DNA of 64,000 nucleotides from Lichtheimia corymbifera B2541 (taxonomy: Eukaryota; Mucoromycota; Mucoromycetes; Mucorales; Lichtheimiaceae). Each line of letters opens with the position of its first letter. Positions within the stretch are counted from its first letter, which is position 1. The translations under genes and the position numbers were made by a program. This document shows, in pieces, positions 2,147 to 55,006 of this stretch. The notes under the pieces are model-generated. The model made no database searches. It was not told the origin of the DNA and was given only the letters and a program-made list of their open reading frames with translations. The stretch is taken from positions 1-64,000 of the forward strand of contig JNEU01000934.1 in the NCBI GenBank assembly GCA_000697475.1, written 5' to 3'.

Positions 2147-3526
2147 GGCGAGCCTGATCGTGAAACTTGCACCCATGGTGCGCTTGATCCCGACGAGCAA
2201 CTTTGTTCTATGAACGACCCCGCGTTTCATTGTAAGATTTAGAGATACAGACACCTTTATGGTTTCCATATGCTGTAAGCGTGATGCTATATGACAAGTG
2301 GTCTTTGTTCATTGTCAAGTAGGTAGACCCCGATAGAGCCGAAGATGAGCAGAGGCGTGCTTGTACAACACAGCTCATTTGCATGATATTTCACAATGAC
2401 CAAACTCCACTTGTCATATAGCATCACGTTTTCAGCATAGTAAAAACATAAAGTGCTTGCATCCATGGATTGGCAAGCTTGATCGTGAAACATGATTGAC
2501 AAGGTGCGCTCGATCACGACGAGCAATATTGTTCTATGAAAGAGCTCACGTTTCATTGTAAAGTTTTGCGATAAATGCACTTTCTTGTTTTTGCATATGC
2601 TGAAAAGCACGGTGATATATGCTAGGTGGTGTTTGTTCATTGTCGAGTAGCTCGACCCTGATAGAGCGGAAGATGCGCAGAGGCGTGCTTGTGCAACACA
2701 GCTCATTTACATGATGCTTCACAACGAACAAACACCACTTGTCATATAATATCATGGTTTCAGCATATGTAAAAACGTAAAAGTGCCTGCATCTAGGATT
2801 GGCAAGCTTGATCGTGAAACATGATTGACAAGGTGCGCTTGACCCCGCCAAGCAACTTTGTTCCATTGAAGATCCCACGTTTCATTGTAAAGTTTAGAGA
2901 TAAACGCACTTTCTCGTTTTACATATGCTGAAAAGGATGATGCTATACGACAAGTGGTGTTTGTTCATTGGGAAGTATTGTGCAAATGAGCTGTGTTGCA
3001 CAAACAGCCCTCTGTGCATCTTCCGCTCTATCAAGGTCGAGCTACTTCACAATGAACAAACACCACTTCTCATATAGCATCATGCTTTTCATCATATGTA
3101 AAAGCGTGAAAGTGCATTTATCTCTGAACTTTACAATGGAACATGAGCTCTTTCATAGAACAATATTGCTCGTCGTGGTCGGGCGCACCTTGTGAATCAA
3201 GTTTCACAATACAGCTTGCCAATCCTAGATGCAGGCAGATTTACGTTTTTGCATATGCTGAAACCATGATTCTATATAACAAGTGGTGTTTGTTCATTGT
3301 GAAGTATCATGCAAATGAGCTGTGTTAGACAAGCACGCCCCTGCGCATCTTCCGCTCTACCAGGGTCTACCTACTTGACAATGAACAAAGATCACCTTTC
3401 ATATTGCGTCATGCTTTTCATCATATGTAAAACATAAAGGTGCCTGTATCTCTAAACTTTACAATGAAACGTGGGGTCTTCAATCGAACAAAGTTGCTCG
3501 TCGGGGTGAAGCGCACCTTGGGTGCA

Positions 3527-3672
3527 AGTTTCATGATCGTCGTGGCCATTCTCAGATTCACCCAATGTCACCACCAGCCAAAGTGAATCGGGTCGACCTC
3601 TTGAATTTTTTTTCGACAAGGCTGGTGGTGACATTGGGTGAATCTGAGAATGGCCACGACGATCATGAAACT
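3527..3672. repeat. 53-bp perfect hairpin inside the right arm
   Basis: The arm 3527-3579 is the exact reverse complement of 3620-3672 with a 40-nt loop. It shares the aatgtcaccaccagcc core with the 2042-2146 hairpin, but the outer stem sequence differs and each stem is internally perfect, so paired changes distinguish the two copies. Confidence 0.9.
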
Positions 3673-4628
3673 TCTACACTAGGTGCGCTTGACCCCGCCG
3701 CGCAACTTTGTTCGATTGAAAACCCCATGTTTCATTGTAGAATTTTTAGTTATGGGAATCTTTATGTTTTACATATGCTTTAACCATAATGCTATATGAC
3801 AAGTGGTGTTTGTTCATTGTGAAGAAGCTAGACAGTAATAGAGCCAAAGATGCGCAGGGGCGTGCTTGTGTAACACAGCGCATTTGCATGATGCTTGCAA
3901 TGAACGGAGACCACGTCTCATATATCATCACACTCATCATAGCATACGTAAAACATAAAGGTGCCTGTTTCTTCAAATTGTCATAATGAAGTGTGATGCC
4001 TTTATGAGAACAAACCTGATCAGCGTGGCCGAGAGCACCTCCTGACCAAGTTTCATGTTCGGGATGGCCAATATCGGCGGGCGCGGGCGGTACATCTTAC
4101 GTATGTTCCCATCCATACATTTGGACGCTGCCATTCAAAATCTTCATAATGAAGCGTAGCATCTTTATGAGGACGAAATTGCTCGTCGCGGTCGAAAGTA
4201 CCTGGCATGAAATTTTCAGGCTCGAGATGGGCGATCTTGGGCTTAGGGAGCGTCGACCTTACTTTTGTCATCGTCCATCCTACATTTGGGGACGCCCGCA
4301 TTCAAAACTTTTATAGTGAAACCTGCGATTTTTTAATGAATGGAAGTGATCAGCATGGCCCAGCGAACCTTCTGACCAAGTTTCAAGTTCAAAGTCGGCA
4401 ATCCCAAGATAATACATACTGAATCGATAAATCGTAAATCCGGCGCGTACCCCATTTCCGACCACCCATAGTAAACCCCACATTACACCCTCCCATCCAA
4501 AATTTTTAAATGAAGTATGGGTTCTTTATTAAGACAAAGTTGATCAGCATACCGAGGAGCATCTTCTGTGCAAGTTTGAGGTCAAGATGAGCAATCTCAA
4601 GATCATGGATCAATTTACAGTGTGCATG

Positions 4629-5708
4629 GAATTGTAGGGCAGTGCCTGACCAATTTAATTTCCACCTCTTCCCACTCCCAGGTTCTTCCTCTTTCTTCGC
4701 ATTCTCAACTGTTGCCCCATTCAGCTACAACTACAACCTGCGAACGATTGTTCTGCTCCAACCCATCAATGTCAACCCTACAACTGTCTTGATCCGATTG
4801 TCTTTAACTGGATGGAGAGTCCATGGCGTGTACACTCCACTACAACACCCGCGTTTCTTGACACTCCACCTTCTCTTGTACAATCCTCAACCACCATCAA
4901 ACGTAACAGCATTCATTCCAGCAGCTGCCATTAGCAATGACTATTCTCCATTGTCTCAAACAGCGTTCACAGCTTTGTCACTCGACTACAGCACACGCTC
5001 TTGCACACTCCTCTGCCACGACCAAACGTAACAGCAGTTGCTATCAGCAAGGCCTTCACTCGATTATCTTAAAGAGCATTCTTTACTTGCAGTAACTTGA
5101 CTAGCAGCCTCTTTCACGTGAACAGCAGATAGCCATTATACAGAGGCAACTTGCTTTCAATACATACAGACTCCTATGCATGATGTCATATCAAGTACGC
5201 CTCAGTACAAGCCGTCTTCACCTGGTTGAGCTGCGATGGAAAATGACCAAGAAAAAGGGTGATCAACAGCCGGATGGAAAAGGATCAGCAGCAGTATTTA
5301 ACTTGCAATGGCTATGATGATGGATGCAATCAAACGAGAAAGAAATCTGGGAAGTTGCTTTGGTTACCTGGCGCGTCGTCAGCAAGAAGAATGGATCATA
5401 CATGAGGATACAGCCGAGGATACACGATAGATCAGATGGAATTGGCGAAGGGGCTTATATCTTTGACGAAAGGTGTTTTACAGCCATGTTTAATATTGGA
5501 GTACTCAAGACGATGCATGCAGCAGCAGCAGCGAAGAACACAATGGCATAGTTATCCCTGTTGACCCTTATATAGTTCATCCGTATCCTTTTATCGTTTT
5601 TACTTTATAAACACCCATACTGCTACCATGTGCTATGCCTTGACGTTTTCACTGAATGAAGATACGGTCCAACACTGTATTTAGAAGGGTACCGTACTAT
5701 AGCGCATA
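4629..5708 (-). repeat. Right inverted arm, high-identity part
   Basis: Mirror copy of bases 1-1080. Open frames seen in the two arms (about 66-79 residues, for example at 158-358 and 5324-5551) are the same sequence read from both arms. They show no recognisable domain and are not called as genes. Confidence 0.85.
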
Positions 5709-33624: not shown

Positions 33625-34354
33625 ATGAATAATTACGTTACACGCGCTGCTCTTGGCAAAGTAGCCGACCATGTTCAAGGCAAACCATCGATTGCGGAAA
33701 CGGATCCTGAAATTCGAGCAGCTATGGAGACTGCTGTATCAACTACCAAGAAACACTGGTGGAAGAAACGTCCCCAAGCAGACATCATATTGAGTGCTCA
33801 TGATCGCCAAATACTGAGAACAGTCAAGAAACGAGCGTGGTATCTGGATCGTGGATGCAAATGTTGTTGTCTACAAGTAGGATTGGATGGCGTTGTTGGT
33901 ATGTTGATGATGATGATGATGGCACAGCCTTCGTGATGATGATGATGATGATACTCACATGGAAACGAGAAAAGGCTTGATCCCAGTAGTAGGAGACCTT
34001 ATCGGTGTCCTTTTGGCTTTACACCTTGTAAAGGTCGCGTGTCGCGCAGATTTACCCAATCATATTATTGCCAAGATGCTAGTCAACGTGTTTATTGATT
34101 TTATGCAAGTGTGCTTTCAAAGTTGAGTGATACATTACACTAACGCACCTATCCTTCCATCCAGTCTCGGATTGACTCCGATAGCAGGTGATGTAATGGA
34201 TGTGCTTTACCAATGCAACTGGCGAAATGCCATGATCCTAGAAGAATACTTGTTCCTTCGACGTCGTGATGAGATTAGAGCTGAACAAGGTGCTGCAGGT
34301 TATGGAAGTACAGGAAGTATCTTTATTTCCAAAAACGACAATAACGACAAATAA
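33625..34354 (+). CDS. DUF4112 membrane protein
   Basis: Exons 33625-33898, 33975-34104 and 34165-34354 give 197 residues. The second intron (34105-34164) uses a GC-AG pair with the consensus donor gcaagt; no GT donor gives an open frame. The DUF4112 core is clear: YLDRGCKCCCLQVGLD, then hydrophobic GLIPVVGDLIGVLLALHLV, a short polar stretch, and the internal repeat of the motif, ILGLTPIAGDVMD, followed by NWRNAMILEEYL. Two to three membrane-inserted hairpins are expected. The biochemical function of the family is unknown. Followed by about 0.6 kb without a gene. Confidence 0.88.
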
Positions 34355-34989
34355 ATTTAAGATCCGGTGGTAAAAAGACAAATTGTTAGTGAGCATTGCG
34401 AATAGCAAGAGCAATGATACGACTTACTTCTACCGGGCACGAGGCCCTACCCACCCGTCTTGATGGGTCCTATCTTGTAACAAAATTCCTCTTGTGCGGA
34501 TGGAGGGACACACGAACTGAATCTTGATGACGATGGAATTATGCTGAAAGATGTATGACAGACAGCACCACCGGACGACAGCCATTACAACCAAAAAACG
34601 AAGACGCCACAAGAAAAAAACGACAAGGACAAGCCGGAAAAAAACCTCCTTCATGTGGTTTGAAATCAGCGAATATTAGATGAAATGAAACTGTGTAAAG
34701 AAAAAATCACCACTGAAGTATCACGGCCTTTTATATGCAAAATGCTGTGAGATATGTAAAGGGGAAATAGTCGTCGTATTGGTAAACAGTAATGAAGGAG
34801 AGGTTGTCTGTGTGGTGTATCCTATAACGGTAATACCTTATTCTTTGTCTGGAGATCAGTGGTATACATAAACCATGAGACCGGTGCAAAGGTCACCTAG
34901 TATGGTATGTTTCCGGCGAATAACCATATTAATAAATCCAATGCATAAAGCCATCTAAGAAGAAAATCTCGGGGTTCCGGGTTATATGG
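34355..34989. other. Intergenic region
   Basis: No gene supported. A 74-codon minus-strand frame (34430-34654) starts with a hydrophobic run but has no other sign of being real. Confidence 0.3.
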
Positions 34990-35480
34990 TTGGCCGTTTT
35001 AGTAAACCGAAGATGTATTCTCGATTCCTTGCACGTTTACGATCGTCCAACCAATGGGTATTACAGTCATTTAAGGAGATTGAGAAGGAAAACCTTGGTA
35101 TTGAGATTGATCGTTTTAGTAAACAAGGAAATAAGATGTATAGTTTCCTGAGAGTACGTAGTCGAAAATGCACAAAGCCCGCCGTCTACGATCTTCCAAC
35201 CAATGGATGTTGCAGTCATTTGAGAAGGAAACCTTGGTACTGAAGATAATGAAGTTGGCTATTTTAGTAAACAAAGAGATCCGCGGGTTTTTTCATAGCA
35301 CGCAGTCGAAAATACATGAAGGTGGGCGTTTGCGATCCTCCAACCAATGGATGTTACAATCATTTAAGAACGACTTTTTACTTTGTTGGTAACTTGAAAT
35401 GGCGATGTTAATTTTCAGCTCTTCATGCATAAGGGCTAAACACACATGCAGTTGGTTGTTTTTGATCCGCCAACCAATGA
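34990..35480 (+). repeat. Diverged tandem repeat, four units of about 130-150 bp
   Basis: The anchor gatc(g/t/c)tccaaccaatg recurs at 35041, 35190, 35334 and 35464 (last copy gatccgccaaccaatg). Between anchors the units share ttttagtaaac, gtcgaaaa and gtt(a/g)cagtcattt. Unit spacing shrinks from 149 to 144 to 130 bp. The CCAAT-containing anchor could be a factor-binding site, but the array may simply be decayed satellite. Confidence 0.8.
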
Positions 35481-36234
35481 TTGATGTAATGCTTCAACTT
35501 CGAAACTAAACACCTGCCTCCTTACACTTTGATAGCATTAACAACAAGCGATATGACGTCTCCTGCAGCAGCCTGCACCCACCACGCGACCACTTTTCCT
35601 TGTAAACACTCCAAGAAGCAACCAAGCTAAACCGAGAACCAGAAAGGAAGATAGTTACTTTTCCTTCAATGCTGTATTACCAATACTACTTTAATCTACG
35701 ATTGAATAGCTTTTAGAATACAGAGCAAATCCATTCGGATATAGTGCATAATAGACGTGAATGTTAGGGGAAGTAAAGTTAAAACAGATAACAGGGACCT
35801 GATACAACCTTGCAACTAATATTCTCCCTTAGAAAACCCTATGGAAAGTTGCACTATGTCAGGTTTTCTAGATCTGAATATTAACCAGCGATTTGGAAGA
35901 TCCAGAAAAAGCTCCATTAGGGGTGGTCATGCTGGATGTTGGTTGGAGCTCTGGGGGACTTGGATGTAGTACAGCCAACTATGATTGGATAGGCAATCCT
36001 TGATGCGAGAATCTCACGGGGTAACTAAACAAATCTTTGTGTTTGTTTAGTATGATGTGGCGTTTTCGTGGTACAAAGAGCATCCCAAAATAAGAATGGA
36101 TGCAGCAAAGACAATGAAATGGACGTATACATGGAACTACATTATCGAAAACAAATCATCCTCCTTTCCGAACCAAACCATCCGCACAAAGAACTCTTTT
36201 AAAGGATAATGACTCTCTTGAATGAGAACATAAG
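35481..36234. other. Intergenic region before the acidic-protein gene
   Basis: Nothing recognised; presumably contains the promoter of the gene starting at 36235. Confidence 0.35.
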
Positions 36235-38094
36235 ATGTTCTCAGCTTCTACGATACAATCAATGAATGGCAACGATTCTGATTCCTCTGACGACGACTGG
36301 GTAATCACCGAAACAGCCACCGATCTGTCAACCTCTATGACAACATCCTCGTCGCCTCTATTTGCTACTATACGAACTATCCAATCATCATTATGCACGA
36401 GCCAACATACTGAAGACACATTCCTATCACAATGGACCACAGAGATCAGCTATATCAACCAAAAACAATTGGAATCGATATGTTCATCGATGGATGGCCA
36501 TCTTCTTGTGCGACGATTGGTCGATGCGTTCAACAATACAGAGGCCTTCTTACGGATTAAAGATACAAACAAAGCCAAAACATCGTTTGATACCAGACTC
36601 AGTGAATCGCTTCATCTATGTAGCGATCCAGGATGTTTCATATTGGTAAAGGAACAGAGAAGATTATATGCCGTTACCAAATCTAACGAATGTGATATAG
36701 GATTTCATCCGGGCAACGGATTCTTATCTTTCTCAGTACCAAGATCCTGATTCGACATCCATATTTTGTCGATACATTATCCAGTCCGCGTGTCAAGCTT
36801 ATCAAACATTCCTGGATACGCCACTCAACCAGTACAAGGAACCAAACAAGAACCACATTATTTTATCAACAACGACGACGACATTGAGTCAATCAGAGGA
36901 AATGGATATATTCTCTTTTACCGATGATGATGAACCCAACCTTATTTCTTTTGATGATGAGGACGATGATCCACTATCAATCAAACCGAATAACGACTTG
37001 GATGTGACGATCACTGAGATATTGAGCTCCAGCGATGAAGAAGAGGATCAAACTGACGAGGATGACGATGAGGATGATATTGAAAATGGCCTGGCCAAGT
37101 TTACTTTTGCGGATCTTATGGATATCCCAGTTGAGATACTAGAACGGCATGTTTTGAAATACGCACATCAGGTTTCATGTATCCGTCTTCTCGAGGTGAT
37201 CTCATCACCCATTCCTATCTATTATGCGATGGGCGTATTCAAATTACATTCCATGATGGCGCATGACTGTGATTATGAGGAAGAAGGTGTACGATTATGC
37301 CAGATGCTTATGCAGCACAAGCACTACGATGAAGCGATTTCATGCATACGTCGACTTGATCTTTTTCACGAATTCCCGGTGGAGCAAATGGCTGGAGATA
37401 TGATATCCAATGGAATGTCGCATATCGTGCCAGTCTATGTCAGTGGCCATGAAGCATTGCAGCGGCAGTTACTCGATTACATCAATAGACAGCTTCGGTA
37501 TACATTTGCTGGATCACTAGGCATTGTGTCTGAAGGTACATATATTGGTATAGCCACAATCTCCCTTCATGTGACTAATAAGTATGTATCGTGATAGAAC
37601 ATCTCAGAGACTTGGAGAGTGATCAACAAAGGATACCACCATTACCTCGTTTGGAGAAACGCCGATTTCAAAAGGATTTGAGAAGATGTTGCGACAAGAT
37701 TATGCGAGAATTGAATGACCAACCGACAGCATATTATTTCATATGGCTTTCCCAGCAATACACGTGTTTGAGATGGCTCATTACGAAGAGGGCCAATCAA
37801 CAATCAGCAGAGAACGACTATTCAGTACCCAGCAGCTCTAATTATAGCGGTCTCATTGATCTTATCACAGCGAATGATCCTGCACTTGCTAAGCTCGCCA
37901 TCAAAGAGCTTGTTGATTTCGGTGATCCCGCGGCAGCAACCTATTTTGCAAGACGCTTGAACCAACAACAATTCCTTGTTCAATGCTATCAACGACCAGT
38001 ACAAGATCGTGCGGTGGGGGACGACATCCCCGATCCCTTCACCAACCATGCATTTTCTCATCCTGAGCAAGATCTTTTTTCAGTTTTGATCTAA
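36235..38094 (+). CDS. Unrecognised acidic helical protein, 585 residues
   Basis: Exons 36235-36645, 36701-37535 and 37583-38094 (introns of 55 and 47 nt) join in frame from ATG to TAA. The N-terminus is Ser/Asp-rich (NDSDSSDDDWVI). A second strongly acidic block lies at about 206-270 (SSSDEEEDQTDEDDDEDD). It is followed by a helical region: FADLMDIPVEILERHVLKYA, abbreviated by its ends FADLMD and LKYA, then repeated helix pairs such as LIDLITANDPALAKLAIKEL and a closing GDPAAATYFARRLN. These resemble alpha-solenoid repeats, but no named family is recognised. An AATAAA signal follows the stop (38110). No membrane segment or signal peptide. Confidence 0.7.
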
Positions 38095-38985
38095 AGGTGT
38101 CTATACCACAATAAAAATGAAAGCTTTTATATAATACTGAACACCAGAATTATCGATTTGTGTAGCAACCTGTCAAAGATGTGTTCGTGTAACGACCACG
38201 CGCGATTTCATTAAGCTCTCCATCTTTCCGTTAATGCAGCCAACATCATCCACTAGGATAAAGCAACTCCGTCACGCTACAGCATGTAGGCGAGTCAATC
38301 ATAGATTGGTTGAACAAATCCAGGAGCTGTTGATCCGCATTGATGTGCACGGACTTGATAGATGCCAATCCCACCACAGGAAACTAACGTATGCATAGCT
38401 TAATTACAAGGAATGTATTCAGTGGTTGTTATTATTGACTCAAGCGTATAGGCTATTGTTGAGGTCCATGTGTGCATATCAGTAACTATAGCAAGCGGGG
38501 TGGGTTGTAGTGCACAAATTGGGAAGTGCGAGGAACATCAAGGAGCCCCTTCTTCACACGCAATTCACAAACCAAGGTAAGCTTGTCTCCATTCCCCACC
38601 TACAACGCATTAACGGCTGCCATTCCTTTCATTGTACAGCCTCAACTGGGTGAACAGGTGGTCAATGATGACTCTTTTCGGCTGCAGCATTCGAAAACAA
38701 GGACGCGCGCGATCGACGATGACTCAAGCTTCCGTTCCAATACAAAAGGTACGTTGAATCGCTGCAACTCTTTTGCTATTCAAGTTGGATATTGTGGTAC
38801 TAATGTTCACGTGTAGATTACTGTTCTCTCGTTTATACAAGATCTAATGGGGTGTCGCGTGTGTTCATTCCTAAGCTGTTCACAACATGAAGTCTTTACA
38901 CTGCTTCCTTTGGGTATGCTGACAAGCAGACGCGTTTAGACTGGTTTTCCTTGTTATCTTACAATGCGCTCATGGTAGATTGAAC
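38095..38985. other. Intergenic, with a possible short spliced transcript
   Basis: Around 38540-38880 there are good splice-site pairs (gtaagc at 38578, ttgtacag at 38639, gtacgt at 38750 and gtgtag at 38817) flanking segments open in more than one frame. This could be a short noncoding or decayed gene. It is not called as a CDS because the frame is ambiguous and no start codon is clear. Confidence 0.25.
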
Positions 38986-41830
38986 ATGTTGGATGAGGGT
39001 ACATCTGGCAGCAACAAGATATCGATTTCAAAGCAAGAACGCTGCATGGTTGGCTCAATGGTATGCAGGGTGTTGGATCTACAAGCAGGAACACTTAATT
39101 AACCAGCCTTACAATGAAACAACAGCAGCAGCACATACTGGATCGGTTGGATACAAGGCTATTTGCAAGCATCAAGAAATGGTATGGGAATGCCACAAGG
39201 TAAAGTGATCATTTTAGGATTTCTCACCTTCAAGTGCACTGATGGAAGAAATAGAATGGCACAAACATCTCTTTCGGCGATATAATCATTATCACAGCAG
39301 CACGTCAAGGGATGGAGTGTACTGTCTTAAGGGGGAAGGCCACGGTGTGTTAGCGGAAATCATGTCCGGCTCATGGTGCGACTTCGGTTTAAAAATGCAT
39401 CCCCTGATCGGTATTGGAGAACAAAGTATATGCTCCACCCTTTGCAGGGCTATACTTTACTCGACTTGGAGAGATGGTGGTTATCTTCATGGCAACGTGG
39501 CTGGACCCACGGCAAGTGGTTGATAAGTCAGCTGGGGAGGGGCTCATATGGGTCACCTGAAACCGGCGTTTTGATGCCACGTTCCTCCGGGAGGCTAGAA
39601 GGCAGTGCGGGTGCTTCATTCCTTAGCTGTGCGCTTTTATTATTACTTTTACATCCTGATGGTCTATTTGGTTCCAAGTCTACATGATGATTGGGTAATT
39701 CTGGTATGTATGAGTATGATGATTTCTGGAAAACTTTGCTGAAACGTCTGATATTATTTAGAGGGACCACTGCAGAGTGCTACTTGTCTTTGGGTGCTTT
39801 GGAGTTTACAAGATCACGCCTATGATTGCTAAGTATTGTTGGGTGGGATTGGAAAACTTCGTTTACCGTGCATCTTTTATATGTAGTGAGCCATGTCAGC
39901 CATAAGGAAGAAAAGTGTTTATATGGTGGCACTGATCTTCATTCCGTTCCTGGTCGTTGGTTGCCAAGCAACGGGCGATTTCTCTGAAGGGTGTCAGCCA
40001 GTGCACGACTCTTGCGGTGGATTGTATCATTCAATAAGCAACAGCATCCATATTATCGGTGTCATCTCAAGCTTTATCTCGTTATTTGGTGCTTCTTGTT
40101 ATCGGCAATTGGGTGGACACCTTGTATATCTTTGGTGTCAGCAAACTTTCCACGTCCTGGCGGTTTGGATGATCGGCGATTCCTTTGATGCACGGCTGCC
40201 ATTAAACGTCTCTTATGAATGGATCATGTCATCAACAAGCAGTAAGAGTCTACGTCGACATCTTTAGTGATACCAAGGACATCTATACATCTCTCCAAGC
40301 TTGTCGCCAATCCTTTGAAGGTATCTAACTTCGCATGCCTGTTATCGGTGGATCATATCAGCAACAAGCAAGGCGCAGCAGCAATGAACAGCAGAGTCTA
40401 TATCTTTAGTGTCAACACCATTTACTCGATTCTCTGGTGGTTCTCGTTATTGGCCAATTGCTTTCAAAAGCATTCTGCAGCGCATGTCTCTTATGGGTGT
40501 ATCACATCAGCAGCAAGCAAGGATGTCCATTTATCTTTTTGGTGCTATCAAGGTTTATCTCCCTTCCTTTGGAGATAAATTGGTATGCATATCATTGGAT
40601 CTGCAATACAAGTGCTATCTATTAACGAGCTTTATGATAGAACAGCAGCATGATATGGCTGGCACGGAGATACAGTTTTATTTGAAGGAAGGACGCTGTT
40701 GAGAATTACTACAAGGTAAGAGTATTCGTCGTGGGATGTCTCGCATGCATGTGCACTTATGATGGAAGATATGGAATGACAGGATCAAGAAGGCTCTTCC
40801 TCGGTTATATCACTGGCACGTCAAGGATGTTATTGTACTGTGTGCTGCCTTGGGGAGACCATGCTGCCCCTTTCACATGTGCTCATGATGCTATGGCTTA
40901 GTCCAATTCAAATGCATCCTCTCACCACAGTTGCAGCGTGCGGATCCACGGCTCAGGTGGTGTCAAATTCGACTGATGAAGGACTTATATGGGTCACTGT
41001 TAAATTCGGTGTTTTGGCGCCATGCTTCCTTCGGGAGGGGGCTAGTAGACAGTACTGGTACCTTGGCATTCTTTGGCATTGTGCCCTTTTCTTATCATTA
41101 TTGTTTCTGGCGGCGGGAATTCTAGCGGATCACTGTACCCTGATTAAGAGATTCGAGTACGTATTATCCAAAAGAGGTTTGGATACTTTTGTACTGACAT
41201 GTGTCTTTTCTAGATGGATTATCTTGCATTGGAGTCGTCAGGATTACAGTCATCATTGTAAGTATCGTTCTATGTGTTTGGAAAATTGTTTACTGACGTG
41301 CATCTTTATAGGTGAATAATGTCATGGTCAAGGAGCGACGTCTATAGCAACCCTCAGTACCAGCTGGCCTTATTACATCGTTCGATTGTTCTCGTTACCA
41401 CCTGTTGTACACTTCCGTTTATTTGCATCTGCAACAACAAGCAACATCTTTTATATCTTTCGTTGTCGTCAAGGTTTATCTCGTCCGATCGTGGTTCTGG
41501 TCGTCGACAATTCTTTTGATGGATATTCAGCTGTGCATGCATGTTATCGGTGGATCATATCAGCAACTAACACAAGAAGTAGTAATAATGTGCAACAGAA
41601 TCCATACCTTTAGTGTCAACAACATTACTCGATTCTCTGTGGATTTTCATCATTGGCCAATTACTTTCATCAAGCGCATCCTACAGCGTACATCTCTTAT
41701 GGGTGTGTCACGTCAGCAACAAGCTACAATGTGTGTGTGTCTTTTGGTGTTATCAACGTCTATCGAGCACCCAAGGCAGCCGTCATCAAGCAACACTCCT
41801 TCCTCTGAAATAGCGGCTATGTATCAGTAA
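38986..41830 (+). repeat. Two diverged direct copies of a 1.2-1.5-kb sequence
   Basis: Copy A (about 38990-40400) and copy B (about 40400-41830) align along their length. Examples: gcacgtcaagg at 39299 and 40817, tatgggtcac at 39548 and 40989, gtgcatcttt at 39869 and 41299, and gttatcggtggatcatatcag at 40345 and 41549. Offsets fall from about 1,515 to 1,205 bp, showing many indels. Frames of 60-160 codons in both copies are not shared between them, so neither copy is evidently coding now. Confidence 0.7.
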
Positions 41831-43749: not shown

Positions 43750-44745
43750 GACAACAGAATCTCGAAGCACTTGCACGGATGACCCAGAAGGATGACGCGT
43801 TTGAAGTTGCAACACCTATGGCTTTAAGAGATTAATCATCAGCATTGGACGAAGTCTATGTTCGCGTGATTCAAAACTACAAGCACCACTTGCATGAAAT
43901 GGAAAGAAAGAATCAGCAGCATTCAATGATGACAGCACAAAAGTTGACTCCATCAAGATGCTTCCATATGACATTGTAGCCAAAATGGTCCCCTATTTGT
44001 GGCATGCCGTTTCCAACACGGATGATGATGAGACACCTGCCTTTTTATGTGTATCCAAGCATTGGCGCAGAGCGATCCTTGAAGCTACACCTTTTCTTTT
44101 TTACCGTTTTCTGGATCGTGACCGCAACAAGGATCTTTCCATCCCATACCAATTCCGTATTCGAAGAATGGATATCGTTACCTATCACGTACCTTGTAGG
44201 CAAGTGCTTTGGTACGTGGTTGGTTACTTACAGCACCTGCGTATCGGTAAGGCCCTCTTTCGGTTTTTTTTCTCCATGTACCTCAAATGTCTAAAGTACA
44301 ATGGAGACACAGATGATCGGATCCAATGACCACATGCATGGGATACCAGCATAGAACCAGGCATCCAAGATATCCCAAGTACGTTGACGCTGCAGAAGAG
44401 TTGAATCAGGAGTTTTTACTAACACCAAACACGATAAAGGGCATCAATTTGGAATAGTCCACGAATCACTGTGAACAAACGAACCCTCTTCCAAACGGGA
44501 CGATATTTTCGTATTTGGTGTCTTTATCATCAGACCTAGTGGAGTATGAAGATCACTTTTGATTTTGCCGTTACCATGATCGATAACGCTCCAAACCTTG
44601 AAACGATCGACAACCGGAGCATCATTCGGATTGATCCAGCACCAATCATTCTTAAGGCCACTTATCATGAGTTGATACCTTTATTGTGTCGTGATCAAGA
44701 ATGGCTGCAAAGCAAGGCCAGGACAACAATTGATAAAAGATGACT
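43750..44745 (+). pseudogene. Decayed F-box protein gene
   Basis: A 123-codon frame (43958-44329) holds an F-box-like segment: LPYDIVAKMVPYLW, then PAFLCVSKHWRRAILEATPFLFYRF. Just upstream, another frame (LEALARMTQKDDAFEV, ending in TAA near 43835) resembles the N-terminal helical part of Mucorales F-box proteins, and downstream 44546-44743 (PNLETIDNRSIIRI) resembles the following leucine-rich part. The pieces are in different frames with stops between them and no splice sites that rescue them all. Called a relic; a shorter functional form cannot be excluded. Confidence 0.45.
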
Positions 44746-44883
44746 TTTTACGAGAGATGAAAGATGATGATTTATTTTTGGATACGATGCGTTCTTATAT
44801 TGTATGGATGTAGATTCTAGACACGATGGGAGAGGGGAGGGAAAGTGAAGGAAAGGTGTGACCGGGCATTGTGTGTGATGTAT

Positions 44884-45035
44884 CAAAAGGAATGTCAAGG
44901 AAACATGGATGGAAATCATATGATGCGTCAAATGGTAAAGAAGTATATCCGAAGTGTGCCAAAAGGAATGTCGTGGAATCATGGATCAAGATCATGTGAT
45001 CTTGTCAAAAGATAAAGAAGTATACCGACATTTGT
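44884..45035 (+). repeat. Two tandem copies of a 76-bp sequence
   Basis: 44884-44959 and 44960-45035 both run from caaaaggaatgtc through catggat, atcat and taaagaagtata. Divergence is moderate. Confidence 0.75.
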
Positions 45036-46041
45036 CATGGAGAAGGAAGATCAAGTTCTCGAGGTATTGAAATTGTTTATTGGTGTTCATATTGAAGAGA
45101 GCTCATTAAGATCAATAACATTATGGACGCAGGATTGCGTTGAAGCGCTTTTACCACATATTACAGTACTGGGCTAGGCTGAAACGCCATCCTTCGTTCC
45201 TGGCTATTCATGGTGACCAAACCTGCTTGGCGAGCAGTGGTGATGAAAATTGTTCTGGATATCTTCAAATGTGTCAGGTCAATAATAAAGCTTGCTGGTT
45301 AATTAATGACATCAATGTGGTGGGTCCTGCCGATTGAAGGATATCATGGGTCTTCTATTTCACGCTAGGATGTGAGAACATTGGCAAAAGAGGCTTATTA
45401 GGTGGGATGTCATCCGGGAGAGAGCGACAAGAAACGGTGATAGCCGTATTATTCATTGTCAAGTAGCTCACTCATGTCAAAACTAAAGACGGAGAAGAAC
45501 CAAAATAGGTAACAAAACCGAGGGAGTAGATGTTGATGGGTTAATCTTACTGGTAGAGGGGTGCATGATCGTTCGAGACATCCACGCGGTCATGCGCTCG
45601 TGAAGCTAGACATGCATTTAGAAACAAAGAATATCAACATGCTCTTATCATGACTCCTTTGCTTATGTTATTTTTATCATATTCCGTCACAACTCAGCTC
45701 AAAGTTGGATTGACATGATATTCATTGTCTTATTGTAGTAGCCAGTTTACTAAAATATTGAAAGACTTTGGTTGACATCCGTACCTGTTGCAAGAATCAT
45801 CACAGCATTCATCATGTGACGGATATTGTAAGATGAAAAACGAGCAATAGCATTTGTCATGACAAAAGGGGTAATACTCGAAATAAAGTTGTCATGCATG
45901 CGTGCAACCGCAAGGGAATCGTGTATGGATCTGGATCATCATCATACCATGAGATCATAATGACGATCATCACCATAAAAATCAGAGTGGTGAGAGTAAT
46001 TTCGACCTCTTCTTTCTTCCCTTCAAGTTTTCCTGTAAAAA
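45036..46041. other. Intergenic, nothing recognised
   Basis: AT-rich, no gene or repeat supported apart from scattered ttgtcatg words. Confidence 0.35.
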
Positions 46042-46360
46042 ATGGACCACCCTTACGAAACAGGAGAAAAAGTCTGCTATAGATTACCCGACGATAGTAA
46101 GCATTATCCGTTATTCTTATTAGCTTATGTAGATTTTGGGATACATCACTCTAACATTTGCGTCGCTAGAAAACCTTCAGCGTATTGGAATTATCAAAGC
46201 AGTCTATATCAATCCAGTGCAGAGAGTCCCAAAGGTAATTATTGAATAACGTATCACGTGAATCTCGCTTACCAATAACCAATTTACAGACTTTATTGAA
46301 AGGACAAGGGAAGAAGCAGATGGATCAAGCGACAGAACAGGCCCCAGTCTTTTGTATTGA
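46042..46360 (+). CDS. Small hypothetical protein, 87 residues (spliced)
   Basis: ATG 46042; exon 1 46042-46234, a 55-nt GT-AG intron, exon 2 46290-46360 ending at TGA. The join is in frame (SPKDFIERTREEADG). The product is hydrophilic with a few aromatic clusters (SAYWNYQSSLY). No family recognised. The in-frame splice is the only support. Confidence 0.3.
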
Positions 46361-47368
46361 AGATTCCTTCAACGGAGCTTATGCCTGTAAGTGCGAATAT
46401 GTATTGGTAGTAATACGGTTGACTAATATCGTGGTCTTCAGTGGTCCACTTGTCTTTAGTCGTCCATCGAATCAATAACCGACCTCGCTGAACTACCAAC
46501 TCCATGGCTCATATCTTTGCATTCTTGATATATTTGTACAACCCACATCTTAACCGCCTATATGGATATATTTTGGCTTTGGCACAAAAATAAACGCCTT
46601 ACAATTGCTAGGATGAATACTATTGCTGATAAATCATGGTGTGAAACTTGATTACGACTCGATTCATACATGGAATATATGCGTTTTTAACAGTGATAAA
46701 TGGATACTGAATAAGGGTACCGGTTGCCAAATGTAGGATATCATTCTACATTGACAACTTTTTTTTCCCATTATTGTTGGTCCGGTTCATATTCGGATGG
46801 TGGTCTATAAACACCCACATAACATCTTCTTATAATAAAACTCGGTGATTCTTCTGGGTCATGTGTATAAGCGTATATGAAACGTGCGCGATTGACTCAA
46901 AAAGCCTCCATGTATTCTTTGTAACAGTATGCGTTTATGCTAAGCGATAGCGGTGTTGACACTTGGGAATGGTGTTTATCGGTTGTGTGCGTCAGGATCG
47001 ATGATTTCGATAGTATACGATCTCATAACGTAGGATAATGGCACCACGTATTATAGGGGGGAGAGCTATCAACATTGTACCATATATAGGTATGGTGTTA
47101 GTTGTCCTCCAGACAATGACGCTTGGAAAGACAATGACTACATTTGGCCAGTATCCTGTATTTACAGGTACCTCGTCGACGGCAATAAGCATATTTCTCT
47201 CCCGACTTTTTTGTCTTGTTGTCCATCCGCATCCTTATACCACGTACCCTCTTGTGATATCAACATCTCCTTTGCTTGAAACTAACAAATCTATCGCTTC
47301 GTAAGTCACGACAACAACAGTAACCGATATATCATCGAGGATTAACATCATATAATCCTACGTAGATT
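46361..47368. other. Upstream region of the XPG/Fanzor-like gene
   Basis: No gene supported. It would contain the promoter and, if the gene is still mobile, a left element end; no terminal inverted repeat shared with the 3' side was found by eye. Confidence 0.35.
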
Positions 47369-50300
47369 ATGGGTATCAAAGGCCTACATCAATATTTACG
47401 AACATCAAACAGCTTGCAACAGGGTGTGAATGTTCCCCAGCAACTTGGTGAAAACAACACAAACACCATCTTTGTCGACTTTTGCTGTGAATTTTTCCAG
47501 CTTTTTCAGATCACTTCAGCATTGGAACTTTTTCGCCTTCAACTTCGAGGTGCAAACACAGAAAATAACGTCAACACCTTCTATCTTGTACTGGGTGAAT
47601 TCGTTGCCGTGGTGTTGGAGCGGCTTCATCATCTTCTTGACCAGGTACCAGGGCTTACTACTATATGCCTTGTTATCGACGGTGATCCGCTTTATGCCAA
47701 GAAGGAGACACACGTGGCACGCAAGAAACGTCGACAAGATGCTATCAAGTTGGCAAGAAGAAGGTTTCCGGGTAATCCCAACAATATTCCTGATCCCCAA
47801 CTAAGCAAGTATGCAAAGCAATGGTTGACGTTCACTGCGGCTATGAAGAACTTTGTCATTGAAGATTTGGTATTCCGTGGGCACCATCAGTACGATGGAA
47901 ATAATCCCAATCAACAAGGCATTGTTTATGTATCAGCCCCATTTGAAGCTGATCCAGTTGTCGTTCATTTGGCCAACAATCGACCAAACTCTGCCATCAT
48001 TTCAAGGGACGGTGATTTGTTTGCGTATTATGGTGCTGTTGATGTTCCGGTAAGTAAAACGTACAAGCTGTTTCGTGACTTGGTAGCTAATATTATTATT
48101 TGATAGCGTATCCTAAAGTTCAACTGGGACATTGGTGCACAATTTGGTCAAGGTGACATGACAACCAAACGCCAGCTATTGAATGCGTTAGCCGGTCATC
48201 CTATCGCAAATGATCAAGAATTACAAATGGTAAGCGCCTCATCACTTTACGTAAACCTATGACTCATTATATTTTCAGGCTCAAATCGAATTCGCTGTTC
48301 ATGCTGCTGCTTCCGGCAATGATTATGCCCAGAACATACCTCAGATATCATTTATCAAGATCCATGAAAGCTTACAAGCATTACGTCCACATGCAGGAAA
48401 TGCCAACAATGTCCTTCAAAGACTCATTGATGCATTGGGGAATCGGGCCACTCCTTTCTTTGTTCAAAGCTTCCAAGTTGCGTTATCACAATACGCTTAT
48501 CCAATTGTAGGTGCAAATGGTCAACGCTCTGAAGCCATGCCCTTTGAAATCATTGGAAATGTTCTACAATACACTGGAGCTGAACCAGCATATCCAACCA
48601 CTGGACCTCAACCACAAGGTTCGCGGTACACGTTCCTTCCACCTGATGGTAGTTATTTCCAGGAGCAGTGGGGTCATACGAGTCCCGAGAACGTTGATCC
48701 TTTACGACCAAGACCCCCGCCAAGGTTGGTGTCACGTGCGAAAAAAGCGAAAAGAAACATTTCATCCAAGGTCAAGAAAATAAGGGCTTTCGTGGATAAT
48801 CAGCAATTCAGGCATCCAGACGGTGAATCTTCGACCACATACTCACAAAAATCTCGATACAAGGTGACATGCCAAGCAGGATTGTATTCTTCGGTGCTGG
48901 CTATAGACAACCGCAGTGCCATTCAAGCTACCATCATTACGAATGCAATGCGTACTTTGGTCAACAAGATGTCCTTTGCAAGATTTGCTTGTCTCCATAT
49001 TGCGGATATTGCCATGAGACAGGCATTCACCACCTTGAACCCACAACAGTGCTATGTGTTCTATTCTCGTTTTTTCGATGAAGACGTCCAGATACGCACA
49101 GAAACATGGCGTAGACTTGTCCTTTGTGCTATGAATTACCAACCTGGTCGTACAGAAACTACATACGAAGATCGTGGAGCAGCAATAGTGGCCACTGTTT
49201 CAGACAGAGTTAACGACATTGTGGATGTTAACGGCAATATACACAATGGCAACCATCACCTTTTCAAGGCTTATGAAGGCGATGTTGCGTACACTTACCT
49301 TTACAGCCTTATGCAAGATGATCCAGTTATTTGCCATATTTTTCTCAAAGCAAGAAAAATATGGTACAGCGGAGAATTCAGTGTGCTTCACGGATTAGTG
49401 CCTGCAAGTCTTTACATTGGACCCGTGGTGACCGAGATTGTACATGGTCTCGATTTGGCGTTTCGCCAAAATATCATCAGGAATTTCAGGGCAAGATATT
49501 GTGATTACATACGACGACGATTACAAGAGACTGCGCAGTGTCCACAAGGTTGGGATAATAATGAAGGTTTCCGTAACACTACTATCCAAGCGGTACAAGC
49601 CCAAACACGGCAACAAGCTATAAACACCGTCCAGCAAGACCAGAATATTGCTCCAGGCATTCGGCCTGCTGTCAACAATTTTGTTCAAAGAATGAACAGC
49701 AAATATCACGTGAATCTACAAGGATTTGATCATAACGTGTGTATACAAGAGTTGATCAATGAAGCAACGGTTCCTCTGCAATGGCCTGCCAACCGAGATC
49801 GTCTCGTTCGTTATATTTTCCAGCAAATTTGGAACGTCCCTTTGTATTCAGGCGAAGAAAACAGGTATAACACTTTTAATGTACTCATTACAGGTAGCTA
49901 ATCTTGTTATTTTTTATTACATAGGGACATCGATGAGCAAGCCGATAACCAGCAGGCTCAACAAGAAATACAGAATCTACCCCAGGGTATCCAAGATGCT
50001 ATTAACGACTTTATAAATGGCGAGCGCGATCTTCAAGTCATCGACATACCAGTCCAACAATATGATCTTCGTGCATGTCTCGGTATTGATCCTCCTGGTG
50101 AACCACAAGTGATTAATGAACCGACTCCTGTTGAACTTGGAACAGTACGCCCTCGTAATGGTAATGGTAATGGTAACGGCAACCATAACGCCAATCCTGA
50201 CGACAATGCAAATTACCTTGGTAATGCGGACGACGATGAGTTTGAGGAAGATGACCTTGAAGACGATTATTACGGCCGTCCACTTAAGGGATTAGCAACA

Positions 50301-51843
50301 AGACTTGTTCCGCTTATGGTGTATATGCTCCAGCATTGTAATGGGTACCTTACTTTCCCTCTGACTCCACATCAGCCATGGGGCCCCATTGCGATACCTT
50401 TCGATCACAGCGGCATAAAAGAAATATTCTTTACAGGAAATCATTTCAAACATTTCGTGGCTCCTCAAATCAGTGATATGCAACAACGTATTATCGACGC
50501 TATCCAAGGTGGACACATGGAAATTGCAGATCAGTTAGAGCAAGGTAAACAAAAATGAATATGTTGTATGCAAGTTTACTTACATAGTATGTTCTTCAGA
50601 ATTGGACACCATGAACGCCGAGATCGAAAACTTCATTGATTTGCCATTCAAAGTTAATCGTTTCGATCAGTTATTTGATATCAAGAGATGCGCGATAATA
50701 ATCAACGGTGAAAAACAAGTGACCAATCGTGGCTATTTAAGGTGGTTAGGTTCTTATATTCCTGGGACCAGTACAAAACGTTTTACACCAAGACGGTTGA
50801 TCCGTACCGATGGTATGCGCATCTACGTCATTTATGCTGACTGGTTGCGTGGTAAACGAGAAGGTGTCCAGGCCCGGTTCATGACGGAGTCACGGAGAAC
50901 AACTCGGGAAGCAATGATCCCGTTGCTCTCGCCTGCCAATGAAGGGATGCGTCAAGGTGTAGATTTATCAGATCCATACCGTGGTGTCGTTGGTATGGAT
51001 TTTGGAGAAGTTTGTTCGGTGGCTTCGGTATATAGGCCCACTGATCCTACGTTGCAAGGGTCACAGCTGGTTATTAAGAGAGGTTTTCTATACGGTCGAA
51101 CTTTGTTGAACCGCGACCAATACAACAACATGAAGGCTGCAAATGGCATTGACCAGTTACTTTCCGAGTTGGGGACATCGACTTATCAAGGAACATACGA
51201 ACAATTGATGCAGTACTTGGATTTGATCAAGGGAAACACCAGGGCGTATCGACTATGGATGTTCCAATCCAAGGCTTCCGTAATGAGATTCAAATGGGAT
51301 AACTTCATGTCTTTGCGTTCGAGGTTGGATCAAGCTTGCTCCCTGGTCATTAACCAAGCTTCAGCAACTAATGATGATGATGACGACGACAGACCTTTGA
51401 TATTCGGATTCGGCTTGGATGGTATCAGTCAACGTAACAGGCGTGGCGCTGTCGCACCTATGGATCAAAAGCTCATCAACGCCTTATTCCAAAAAATCAA
51501 GCAAACGAATCGCTTAAAAGATAGGGAAGATCGTGATATATGCACTCGAGTGGACGAATACATGACTTCACAGACATGTTGCCGTTGTATTAAGGAAAGT
51601 GTAATAAGCCAAGTCAACTATCTTGTCCGTCAGGCCACCATTTTCGATCGCATGGCACAAAATGCACAAGGTCAAGTAGAGGTTTTCCGAGTCGTTCGAT
51701 GCCAGCATAACGATCAGCACACATACCATCGCGATGGCAACGCTGCCGAAAATATGGCGACTATACTCCGTTATATGATACGTTTCCAACAGCGACCACC
51801 CCGCTTCATCAGACAATCGCGTTTACCTCAAGAACAGCAATAA
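47369..51843 (+). CDS. FEN1/XPG-type nuclease fused to a Fanzor/TnpB-like RuvC nuclease
   Basis: Exons 47369-48049, 48107-48229, 48279-49864, 49925-50544 and 50600-51843 join in frame to 1,417 residues with all borders GT-AG. Residues 1-330: XPG/FEN1 fold starting MGIKGLHQYL, with acidic residues in the flap-nuclease positions: Asp37, Asp104 (IDGDPLYAKKE), Glu193/Asp195 (APFEADP), Asp214/Asp216 (SRDGDLF) and Asp283 (SGNDY, then NIPQ for the H3TH). Residues about 330-1,000 are unrecognised, with an Asn/Gly tract and an acidic patch near 875-915. Residues about 1,130-1,395: RuvC-I Asp1137 (VVGMDFGE), FGFGLDG, then VDEYMTSQTCCRC with Glu1323 and a CxxC at 1330/1333, Cys1371 with nearby His, and RuvC-III Asp1382 (HRDGNAAENM). 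The DEYxTS motif is Fanzor-like. Predicted nuclear nuclease; RNA guidance is inference from family. Confidence 0.85.
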
Positions 51844-51938
51844 GTAGTAGACTTTTTTTGTATGTATGATGTTCCTCGATCAATAAATCGATTCGACATC
51901 TTATTTAGTAAAATGATGTTTGATATTACGTAAACATA
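51844..51938. other. 3' region of the XPG/Fanzor-like gene
   Basis: Starts with T7 at 51853 and has an aataaa at about 51883. In TnpB/Fanzor systems the guide RNA often overlaps the 3' end of the nuclease gene, so this and the next few hundred bases are the place to look; no conserved structure was identified by eye. Confidence 0.3.
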
Positions 51939-52181
51939 TCAAAGGAGATCTTTCCCGTCATTTAGGCTTACTGGGTCTAAGTTTACAATTACACGTATCT
52001 TCATCGATAATTGGGATGTGTCTATGACTAGAATTGCTTTCCTCTTTATGGCTTTATAATTTACCGTTACTTGCTCTAGTTTAACTTTTCGTGCAAAGAA
52101 AACTTCATAATTGGTATTGTACTTTTGCAACGACAGAAATTGAGTATGACTAATATCTCGATGGAAGACTAGTATTGCCAT
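51939..52181 (-). CDS. Hypothetical protein, 80 residues, convergent to the fusion nuclease
   Basis: ATG 52181 to TGA or other stop at 51939. Alternating hydrophobic and basic residues (RKVKLEQVTVNYKAIKRKAI) suggest a small beta-rich basic protein. It ends 95 bp from the stop of the fusion-nuclease gene. No family recognised. It may be chance, or the end of a longer spliced gene. Confidence 0.28.
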   Translation of the reverse strand: MAILVFHRDISHTQFLSLQKYNTNYEVFFARKVKLEQVTVNYKAIKRKAILVIDTSQLSMKIRVIVNLDPVSLNDGKDLL

Positions 52182-53269
52182 AGATAATATATTCTTCCGC
52201 GAAGATGTAATGTGGAGTTGATAGTATCGGGTAAGGCATGCTTTCTGTTTATAATCACTTTATCATCATACATATAATGCTGGTTTTACGATGTGTCTAT
52301 CTGGGTGTCGTATTTCAAGTGTCAATACATCCCCGAATACAAGATGACAAGTCTTTGTATCACAGCGACCACACTTATCCCGCAAGAGGATACCGTATAC
52401 ACATACACATTCAAGGTTCATTACACGACGTGCCAACATCTTCATATATAAACGTCATCTTTATATAGCATCGTCACACAACCATCCCAGAAACCTATAT
52501 AAGACATGTTGTAGTTGTAGCTGGAAACATTATTTTGAATACAGTATATTGATTCTCAACGTACCTTCTATCCTTCTGTCTATCCTTTCTATACCGTAAT
52601 ATCTCACTGACCTTGTTAACACAGGAAGTACAAGCAATTCCACAAGATCAAACCCAGCAACGATCACTGCATCAACTAGCAACAGTAGCGGAAATGCATT
52701 AAAAAAAGCTAGCGGGTCGAGCCGACAAGACAACAGTCGCCATGGCGACACAAGGAAGAAAGGCGATATATCAAAGAATGTACGGAAAAACAGCAGTGGG
52801 CCAAAACCGCGTGAATATGCAACATTCATCTCTATTGATACTCGTGCATAGTAGAGTGTTCCACAAGGCTGATCGATTGTTCTTTCAAGTCATGCATACC
52901 CTCTTTCCTATTGATCTCATACTGCCGCTCATACCATCATTGATTCTGAATAAAGATATGAACACTGCTCATTGATCCTATCATCATGGACCCATTTTCA
53001 ATCATGATAAGAGAGTGAAATAGTATTATCATTCAACATTGTAATAAAGGTATATGGGGCCTTTTTTCTACTTTGGGTGCCAGATGAATAGGGAAGGGTT
53101 ATCCTTGGCGGTAGTAAAACATACCGAGTGAATGAGCTCGCTCGCACTGCAGAGGCATCCGGTTGTGTCACTTTCAAAAGTGGATTTTAGGTTTCAAATC
53201 ACCACCACGCATATCAATCACTTCTTCTCTTTGCGGGCTCCTTTTACAGCTCTTCCCGTTCTTTTCTCT
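52182..53269. other. Intergenic, with one exon-like segment
   Basis: A segment at about 52625-52851 preceded by a good acceptor (ttaacacag) is open and reads as a Ser/Asn/Lys-rich tail (GSTSNSTRSNPATIT ... FISIDTRA, then stop). No start exon could be joined to it. The right part holds the bHLH gene promoter; an alternative in-frame ATG for that gene is at 53132. Confidence 0.3.
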
Positions 53270-55006
53270 ATGGACTTTGCAGCATATGACTTTGGAGCTT
53301 CCGGTGACAATGGCAAAGGAGATCATTCCTCCCAAAACCAGCAGCATGCTATTGACGGCTCTGTCGATTTCTTTTCCTTTGCGGATGTCCCAGCGGATTA
53401 CCATGGCAACGATCCAACCACCATGAACATGGACTATTCACAAGATCTTGGTTCGTCTTTTGCAATGACACAGTTTGGGAACCACGACGCACCTCAGCTA
53501 CAGGATAATATGATGCTACAAGGCCATGGCCATGTTGGTAACAGTGCTCAATATGACATGTCACCTGCACATACGCCGTTAAATCGCCCGCATGGTATGG
53601 GCTCAATATTTGGAGAGGATGAGGTATTATACAAGTTCAAATGAGTATTGGTGCACGTCTTCGTATAGCTCATGCCATCCAAATAGGATTTTTTCAGTCC
53701 TTTACTTTCCCCTGCGATTGGGCCATCATCATCGACATATCAGCAACATAACACGGCTGAATCGAGCTTTTCACCACTCACATCACCAGCGTTGCATTCA
53801 CAACAAGGGATGGAGAACGTATTACAACAGAGATTGGTTATGATTGAACATCAGCAGCAACAACTAAGATCCGCTCATCCCCACATGCCTCCTTCTGCCA
53901 ATGCACATACAACAACTTCTTCACATCAACCATCAGCAACAGCACAATCACAGCCAATAACAACCACATCCTCATCAACCATATCCAAAGAAGCAATATA
54001 CCCAAGGAAACTCGCTCCATCTTCAGTATCATCATCATCAAAAGCATCCAATAACAACAGCAATGACGACCATGCATTTATTGCCCCAGCCACTCCATCG
54101 TTACTAATGAGGTTGGGTCAACAAGGTGGCAAGAGCAATGATAAACCTTCCATGACATCCACCAACAATGCAACATCCAAAATAACTGCACAGCATCAAC
54201 CACCATCATCAGCAATATCATCATCATCGTCATCATCAGTGGATAACATGGCGTCGTTACCAGCTGCTATGCTAGAGATGAGACCGGCGCCAACTAGAAA
54301 GCAATCTTTACCTGCTACTACAACCAAACGACGGAGGATATCACGTACATCAGCTGCATTTACATCACCTGCATTGGCTCCAACAGCGATGCATATATCA
54401 CCAAGGGTGCATCCTACTACCCCATCAGGCACCGATCCCACCATTGCAGCTTTGGTATCACCAGCAGCTTTACGGCCTCAATCATCAACGGCCTCTCCAC
54501 GAGCATTGAAACCTCTTATTTCACCTTCACTACAACCCAATGGAAAACGACTCACTGCCATTGAAGAGGAAGTAGCTGCTGCTGCATTAGCTTCTAAAAG
54601 CAACTATCAAAACATGCGGGAAGGCAAGGCAAAGAGTTTGGGCATTGAGTTTTCTACGAGTTTTCAATCAGGCGTTGAGAATCGGCGGTCGGCACACAAG
54701 GCAGCTGAACAAAAACGACGCGATACGCTTAAACAAAGCTTTGATGCGTTGCGTAAGGAAATTGCGGATGCTTTGGTGGAACAGCAACGACAAGAAGAGG
54801 AAGAGGAAGTTGCCAAGGATGATGTCCAAGAACGAAGGGAAAGCAAGGAAAAAGAAGTCAAGCAAATGAGCAAAGTGGTCTTGATTCAGCATTCTTATGA
54901 ATACATCCTAAGGCTCAAGGAAGAAAACCGAAGGAAAGATCAAGAGATGGCATTGTTGCAACAAGAATTAGATAGTCTGCGCAAGCAAATCGATTCGAGT
55001 AAATAG
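53270..55006 (+). CDS. bHLH transcription factor with an extended loop
   Basis: Exons 53270-53623 and 53687-55006 give 557 residues. The acceptor at 53686 is chosen over a later ...tttcag because it restores DFFSPLLSPAIGP in frame. An in-frame ATG at 53132 would add 46 residues that look non-conserved. The first 450 residues are low-complexity and Ser/Thr/Gln/Pro-rich, with SPLLSP and SPLTSP phospho-like motifs. The C-terminus (450-557) holds the basic region and helix 1 (NRRSAHKAAEQKRRDTLKQ), an unusually long, very acidic/charged loop of about 30 residues (QEEEEEVAKDDVQERRESKEK), helix 2 (KVVLIQHSYEYILRLKEEN) and a leucine-rich coiled coil. The H-E-R-like pattern in the basic helix predicts E-box binding; targets unknown. 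Nuclear. Confidence 0.87.

Follow-up and report, generated by a model that had tools for sequence, protein, structure and literature searches.

Does a single fungal gene encode both a FEN1-type 5' nuclease and a relative of TnpB and, if so, does this gene belong to its host or to a mobile element? The question is raised by a gene at positions 47369-51843, on the forward strand, of a stretch of 64,000 nucleotides from Lichtheimia corymbifera B2541 (contig JNEU01000934.1, positions 1 to 64,000; the whole stretch is referred to here as the window). Both TnpB, from which CRISPR-Cas12 descends, and Fanzor cleave DNA under the guidance of RNA; enzymes of the FEN1/EXO1/XPG type cleave 5' flaps or degrade 5' ends. 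According to our reading, the gene encodes a fusion of the two kinds in one polypeptide and represents a dispersed family in the Mucorales, whose carrier is, or once was, probably a mobile element; the RuvC domain would cut DNA and the flap nuclease process the ends. Taken as a whole, we hold this reading with about as much confidence as doubt.

Gene structure and the two nuclease regions

When spliced, the five exons give a reading frame of 1,417 residues with zero internal stops, which is terminated by TAA at 51841-51843. All four introns are of the GT-AG type (48050-48106, 48230-48278, 49865-49924 and 50545-50599) and measure 57, 49, 60 and 55 nt respectively. Exon 1 (47369..48049, residues 1-227) starts with MGIKGLHQYL and covers the FEN1/XPG N-region and the start of the I-region, including the active-site residues D37, D104, E193, D195, D214 and D216. 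Exon 2 (48107..48229, residues 228-268), with intron positions identical to those of a copy on contig C61, is followed by exon 3, the first part of which (48279..48509, residues 269-345) contains the GNDY region and D283 and ends where the FEN1-family domain ends as aligned. The remainder of exon 3 (48510..49864, residues 346-797) encodes a central region that has no Pfam match and is alignable in the C61, C364, Lichtheimia hyalospora and Apophysomyces ossiformis proteins described below; exon 4 (49925..50544, residues 797-1004) completes it and includes an Asn/Asp-rich stretch. Exon 5 (50600..51843, residues 1004-1417 plus the stop codon) carries the TnpB-family region (50641..51840, residues 1018-1417), which is recognised by Pfam Cas12f1-like_TNB, hhalign and residue conservation. 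Within it lie the RuvC-I aspartate D1137 in the motif GMDFG (50998-51000), the alternative RuvC-II glutamate E1323 in DEYMTSQTCCRC (51556-51558) and the RuvC-III aspartate D1382 in HRDGNAAEN (51733-51735), all on the forward strand. As judged from its sequence, the product is a single polypeptide comprising a FEN1/EXO1/XPG-family 5' nuclease, a central region of ~670 residues and a TnpB-superfamily RuvC/TNB nuclease. The spliced frame bears out the original prediction that five exons join without a stop, and the ten residues named there are all found in the protein at the positions assigned to them.

Residues 1-345 belong, on the strength of profile and residue matches, to the FEN1/EXO1/XPG family. 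Searching the Protein Data Bank (PDB) with a profile of the N-terminal family region retrieved EXO1 (E = 3e-6), RAD2 (0.0038) and FEN1 (0.014). Pfam searches, which had been proposed as a check of the original prediction, matched, at E<=1, XPG_I in five of five and XPG_N in three of five aligned members, the window copy included. Residues 1-345 of the window copy score just under the Pfam cut-offs (23.8 against 24.9 and 19.6 against 22), and the XPG_I match of the window protein spans positions 1-40 of 89 only. The seven acidic residues of the FEN1 pattern, which had been predicted to be intact, are conserved across five aligned fusion proteins: D37 and D104 in all four that have this region, and E193, D195, D214, D216 and D283 in all five. 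In addition to these residues, the domain shares with FEN1, EXO1, XPG and GEN1 the MGIxGL start, the GNDY region and a basic stretch following the second aspartate. A structure model of exon 1 had a mean predicted local distance difference test score (pLDDT) of 60, and the top Foldseek matches of this weak model were unrelated, RecA-type proteins.

At the other end of the protein, a RuvC fold is predicted for residues 1018-1417. The Pfam TNB family (PF07282) matched four of four aligned members (best 4e-8) and, at E<=0.001, four of four further relatives. The C-terminal piece of the window copy scored 26.6 bits (cut-off 26.3), and the whole protein 24.1 bits, which is under the cut-off. When the PDB was searched with the C-terminal family profile, TnpB was the sole match at E<=10 (E = 0.022). 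When eight members were compared with three plasmid TnpBs by hhalign, P was 8e-6 and the probability 84% over 50 columns of the TNB and RuvC-III regions, against P = 0.45 for a control with the reversed family; a global alignment of the family with the TnpBs failed (E 0.62), and D1137 was placed opposite the TnpB RuvC-I aspartate at a permissive hhalign setting only. Among the five aligned fusion proteins D1137 is present in five of five, and E1323 and D1382 in four of four. Weaker indications include NCBIfam matches to TnpB/Cas12f2 among aligned members (the window copy being far below the cut-off), a weak Cas12f match of exon 5 in PADLOC, which did not recognise the L. hyalospora protein, and PHROGs 'transposase' families for the relatives P0005 and P0003, with none for P0001 and P0002. 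The structure model of exon 5 was weak (mean pLDDT 41).

It is highly improbable that two neighbouring genes have merely been merged by a wrong gene model. Such an error would agree with the observation that the relatives P0003-P0006 consist of C-terminal parts only, though their gene calls may have been cut short at introns. Several facts speak against it: no intron separates the end of the FEN1 domain from the start of the central region, both of which lie in exon 3, intron 4 occurs at a matching place in three copies (window, C61 and C364), the L. hyalospora record is a single protein of 1,416 aa, and the A. ossiformis protein joins an XPG region to a RuvC-I motif. The fusion is more than chance or artefact, because each half has independent Pfam, PDB-profile and profile-profile matches, and because a 67% identical protein in L. 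hyalospora and two more full-length copies have been found. The central claim of the original prediction, that one gene encodes nucleases of both the FEN1 family and the TnpB superfamily, is well supported.

The class of the C-terminal nuclease is less typical than its initial description as Fanzor-type had implied. According to the available part of Yoon et al., the marks of Fanzor are a RuvC-I motif that is near-exclusively DPG and a glutamate six residues ahead of the first CxxC (PMC10711439). The RuvC-I motif is DFG or DIG in nine of nine family members and DPG in none, and the alternative glutamate precedes the first CxxC by six residues in seven of the nine, the remaining two being without this region. 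Since the glutamate mark is present but DPG is absent, the C-terminus is best called, from its sequence motifs, a nuclease of the TnpB superfamily that has a Fanzor-type glutamate, and not a typical Fanzor. The zinc finger had likewise been predicted from one CxxC: this first half is present, but the second CxxC is missing in the window copy, the C61 copy and L. hyalospora, and a complete four-cysteine finger is found in four of nine members (C364, P0003, P0004 and P0005), a count in which P0002 and P0006 are partial and lack parts of the region. The Fanzor motif D-X(125,275)-[TS][TS]XX-C4-X(5,50)-RD, as given in the accessible text of Bao and Jurka (PMC3627910), is matched in the spacing of D, TS and first CxxC by seven of nine members, and in its full C4 form by four of nine, the window copy not among them.

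The family shares features with two groups. With Fanzor1 and Fanzor2 it has in common the C-terminal RuvC/TNB region, the alternative glutamate, a dispersed fungal distribution and a ghost-like locus (see below); it differs in the DFG/DIG motif, in the missing second CxxC of the window copy, in that no guide RNA was found, and in having, on the N-terminal side, a domain of the FEN1 family and an extensive central region. With prokaryotic TnpB of the IS200/IS605 and IS607 types it shares a D-phi-G RuvC-I motif, the TNB zinc finger and the RuvC-III aspartate. In contrast to these, however, the fusion uses the alternative glutamate position, and the three TnpBs examined are of 385-402 aa and so have no room for a FEN1 domain. 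Fanzor1 is listed by Bao and Jurka in Rhizopus, Phycomyces and Mucor, and neither 'XPG' nor 'FEN1' occurs in the text of that paper as available (PMC3627910). Fanzors with an additional domain inserted in RuvC are described from Parasitella and Rhizopus in the portion of a further study open to us (PMC11423790). The same genome also contains a separate TnpB/Fanzor-like gene (C363:27590-27751, locus L036) with a DPG RuvC-I motif and the alternative glutamate; this is a more typical Fanzor, in which no FEN1 domain was noticed in the stretch read.

Family members and selection

Copies were searched for in the 35-Mb, 432-contig genome at E<=0.01, and the counts given here are lower bounds. Contig C61 carries an intact copy of 1,416 aa, 71-89% identical to the window copy by exon, with which it shares the four introns. 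The copy on C364 (1,564 aa) is 34-39% identical and has three introns at matching places, as judged by eye. Partial matches occur on five contigs (C312, C118, C423, C215 and C425), three of them with stops in the matched frame. The original prediction had suggested looking for the same order of domains elsewhere, and it recurs in other species: the closest protein found, a hypothetical protein of L. hyalospora (1,416 aa), is 67% identical at 100% coverage, and an A. ossiformis protein of 1,036 aa (31% over 78%), in which XPG_I is present, extends from the XPG region to just past RuvC-I. A protein of 667 aa from Apophysomyces sp. BC1015 corresponds to the C-terminal part, as do three more proteins from the source 'lgn'. 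Lichtheimia and Apophysomyces are both Mucorales, and on these sequence matches the fusion is a family of dispersed genes in this order. No additional members were recovered by a search with the full-length family alignment. No relative was confirmed in viral contigs with the C-terminal and N-terminal profiles, in prokaryotic genome contigs with the C-terminal profile, or in phages with P0005 as query; plasmids gave 10 weakly matching records for P0005, most annotated as TnpB (best E 0.01). None of these four collections holds fungal genomes.

Between the window and C61 copies the ratio of non-synonymous to synonymous substitution rates (dN/dS) is 0.257 over 1,407 codons, with 0.26 for the FEN1 part, 0.295 for the middle and 0.18 for the RuvC part. 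Both nuclease domains are under purifying selection and appear to be maintained, and the two halves of the protein seem to be functional. Such selection, together with the low copy number and the presence of a full-length gene in L. hyalospora as well as here, would also be expected of a domesticated host gene, namely a structure-specific repair nuclease derived from a FEN1 paralogue that captured a TnpB-like domain and is no longer mobile. We consider this unlikely in view of the deep paralogues and partial copies on five other contigs of one genome, the in-frame stops in the matched frame of three partial copies (some of which introns could explain) and the repeat-rich flanks.

Candidate element ends and target motif

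The fusion family is probably borne, now or formerly, by a mobile element, and this is the likely reading of the locus, given the comparison of its copies. A stretch common to the window (45851..51862, forward strand) and the C61 copy (C61:31659-37616) is 75% identical up to 51842 and ends ~20 bases past the stop codon. In both places the order and direction are the same, a left-end repeat being followed by the gene together with the 1.5 kb that precede it. This repeat (34317..35784) aligns with gaps between window 34317-35552 and C61 27974-29602, and pieces of it adjoin the 3' end of the gene on contig C361; it is possible that it represents the left part of a mobile element. The locus on C361 is a composite of 567 bp in which window segments 34317-34624, 35618-35784 and 51785-51952 are joined, beside sequence that was judged by eye to resemble a long interspersed nuclear element (LINE). 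The gene end and 3' flank (51785..51952, forward strand) are 94% identical there, and 51952 is a candidate right end. The composite resembles the 'ghost' loci of ~550 nt that are reported for Spizellomyces Fanzor elements in the available part of PMC10432273, and thus hints at a mobile element. Within the left-end repeat, C61:28852-29397 contains a unit in five copies at 126-bp spacing, and diverged copies are present in the window.

A pattern derived from the left end occurs with 0-1 mismatch at seven places, of which six were inspected (C222 was left out). All six begin with G[T/C][A/G]TCTTTATTTCC following unrelated flanks, four of them with exactly GTATCTTTATTTCCAAAA, although the pattern by which two of the six had been retrieved already included the motif. 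With up to three mismatches there were 144 places, against 70 for a backward control. G[T/C][A/G]TC may be a target motif, because a related sequence on C388, which lacks the insert, reads GCATC at this position. C388 was rejected as an empty site of the C361 locus: the LINE aligns up to GCATC (GTATC in C361), but the right side is rearranged. Two sequences of ~850 bp (C171:47277 and C199:74595), 76% identical, start with the same left-end motif; the stretch read contains no fusion gene, and on their reverse strand TATA-like and polyadenylation-like signals were seen by eye, as if they were a transcribed unit.

Several observations weigh against a mobile element with these boundaries. The two ends share no terminal inverted repeats beyond eight columns with one mismatch, and no clear target duplication was found at the candidate ends. 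Identity between C361 and the window is uneven, at 84% in the left part and 94% in the right. In the window the left repeat is separated from the shared upstream stretch by 10 kb with an open frame, which has an 82% paralogue elsewhere, and only one ghost-like composite was found in the genome.

AcademX encodes a nuclease of the XPG type and a DDE transposase, and a target duplication of 3-4 bp is characteristic of it. It is conceivable, if quite improbable in our estimate, that the fusion is an AcademX-like DNA transposase, whose RNase-H-fold C-terminus would carry out cut-and-paste chemistry at the element ends independently of an RNA guide, and whose XPG domain would process flaps. What the two would have in common is a nuclease encoded by a transposon, and dispersed copies with a deleted, ghost-like locus suit any transposon. 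However, in place of a DDE transposase the C-terminus of the fusion matches the zinc-finger/RuvC-III region of TnpB, which is to our knowledge not a feature of Academ transposases, and it also counts against this explanation that no terminal inverted repeats were found. In its favour, the lineages AcademH and AcademX are contrasted by the enzymes that they encode, helicase and nuclease, in the part of PMC10045372 that is available.

Proposed mechanism and surroundings of the gene

In the likely mechanism, the RuvC domain of the fusion would break a chosen DNA site, RNA guidance being plausible by analogy with TnpB and Fanzor. The tethered 5' nuclease would then remove flaps or resect ends at the break, and this end processing would bias repair towards outcomes in which the element is copied or kept. 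For the central region, nucleic-acid binding and a coupling of the two nuclease activities are proposed. Searches for a guide RNA gave no clear signal: the folding of the 168-nt 3' region and of the left-end repeat, compared with shuffles, gave z of -0.47 and -1.30, and five 3' pieces showed no convincing structure against mononucleotide shuffles (z -1.0 to 1.4). Rfam gave 0 matches at gathering scores in window positions 30000-56000, and ARAGORN no tRNA in the window.

We know of no 5' nuclease of the FEN1/EXO1/XPG/GEN1 type that is fused to a RuvC nuclease. A FEN1/XPG-TnpB/Fanzor fusion is undescribed in the titles and abstract openings among the matches listed, which leave subscription papers mostly uncovered, and the available part of a paper that treats FEN1, TnpB and Fanzor together contains no description of one (PMC12719977). 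A bolder and tentative proposal, which we regard as somewhat unlikely, is that of a new eukaryotic mobile-element lineage, in which an RNA-guided TnpB-type nuclease has its own 5'-flap/exonuclease and inserts next to a fixed G[T/C][A/G]TC motif; target cutting and end processing would then be performed by one protein. According to the accessible part of PMC10432273, it is not known what Fanzors do biologically. TnpB and Fanzor are compact RNA-guided cutters. A natural protein that joins such a cutter to a 5' nuclease, with purifying selection on both halves, would imply that what is done to the ends after cleavage is important for the way these nucleases work, and could reveal how eukaryotic elements steer post-cleavage repair.

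Upstream of the gene, small reading frames at 46042..46478 on the forward strand, apparently interrupted by introns (MDHPYETGEKVCYRL... and ...QMDQATEQAPVFCIEDSFNGAYACK...), are also found upstream of the C61 copy. Between the two copies dN/dS is 0.35 in frame (59 codons), against 0.77 and 0.96 in the other frames, so an accessory gene is possible; the frames have no Pfam match at 0.01, and none was found near the C364 copy. The interval from the left-end repeat to the fusion gene includes, at 36226-38091, open frames without a Pfam match, one of which (36701-37591) has a paralogue at C182:60447-61316, 82% identical. C182 was considered as a paralogous block without the fusion gene, but its upstream gene differs, which makes it uninformative.

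The surroundings of the fusion gene are rich in dispersed repeats. The repeat at 38951-41789 has 125 matching stretches in the genome, itself counted, and recurs both upstream of the C364 copy and next to the fusion-family fragment on C118. A 345-bp repeat (44687-45031) has probably been active recently, since it is 94-96% identical on seven other contigs. Just 3' of the gene lies a dispersed repeat of ~300 bp (52306-52607), up to 88% identical elsewhere, part of which is found inverted downstream of the C364 copy. A repeat cluster at 558-5152, with members in both orientations that are about 67-91% alike, is also represented on C61, C118 and C423. Directly downstream of the fusion gene, 53687-55006 contains a frame for a helix-loop-helix transcription factor (PF00010).

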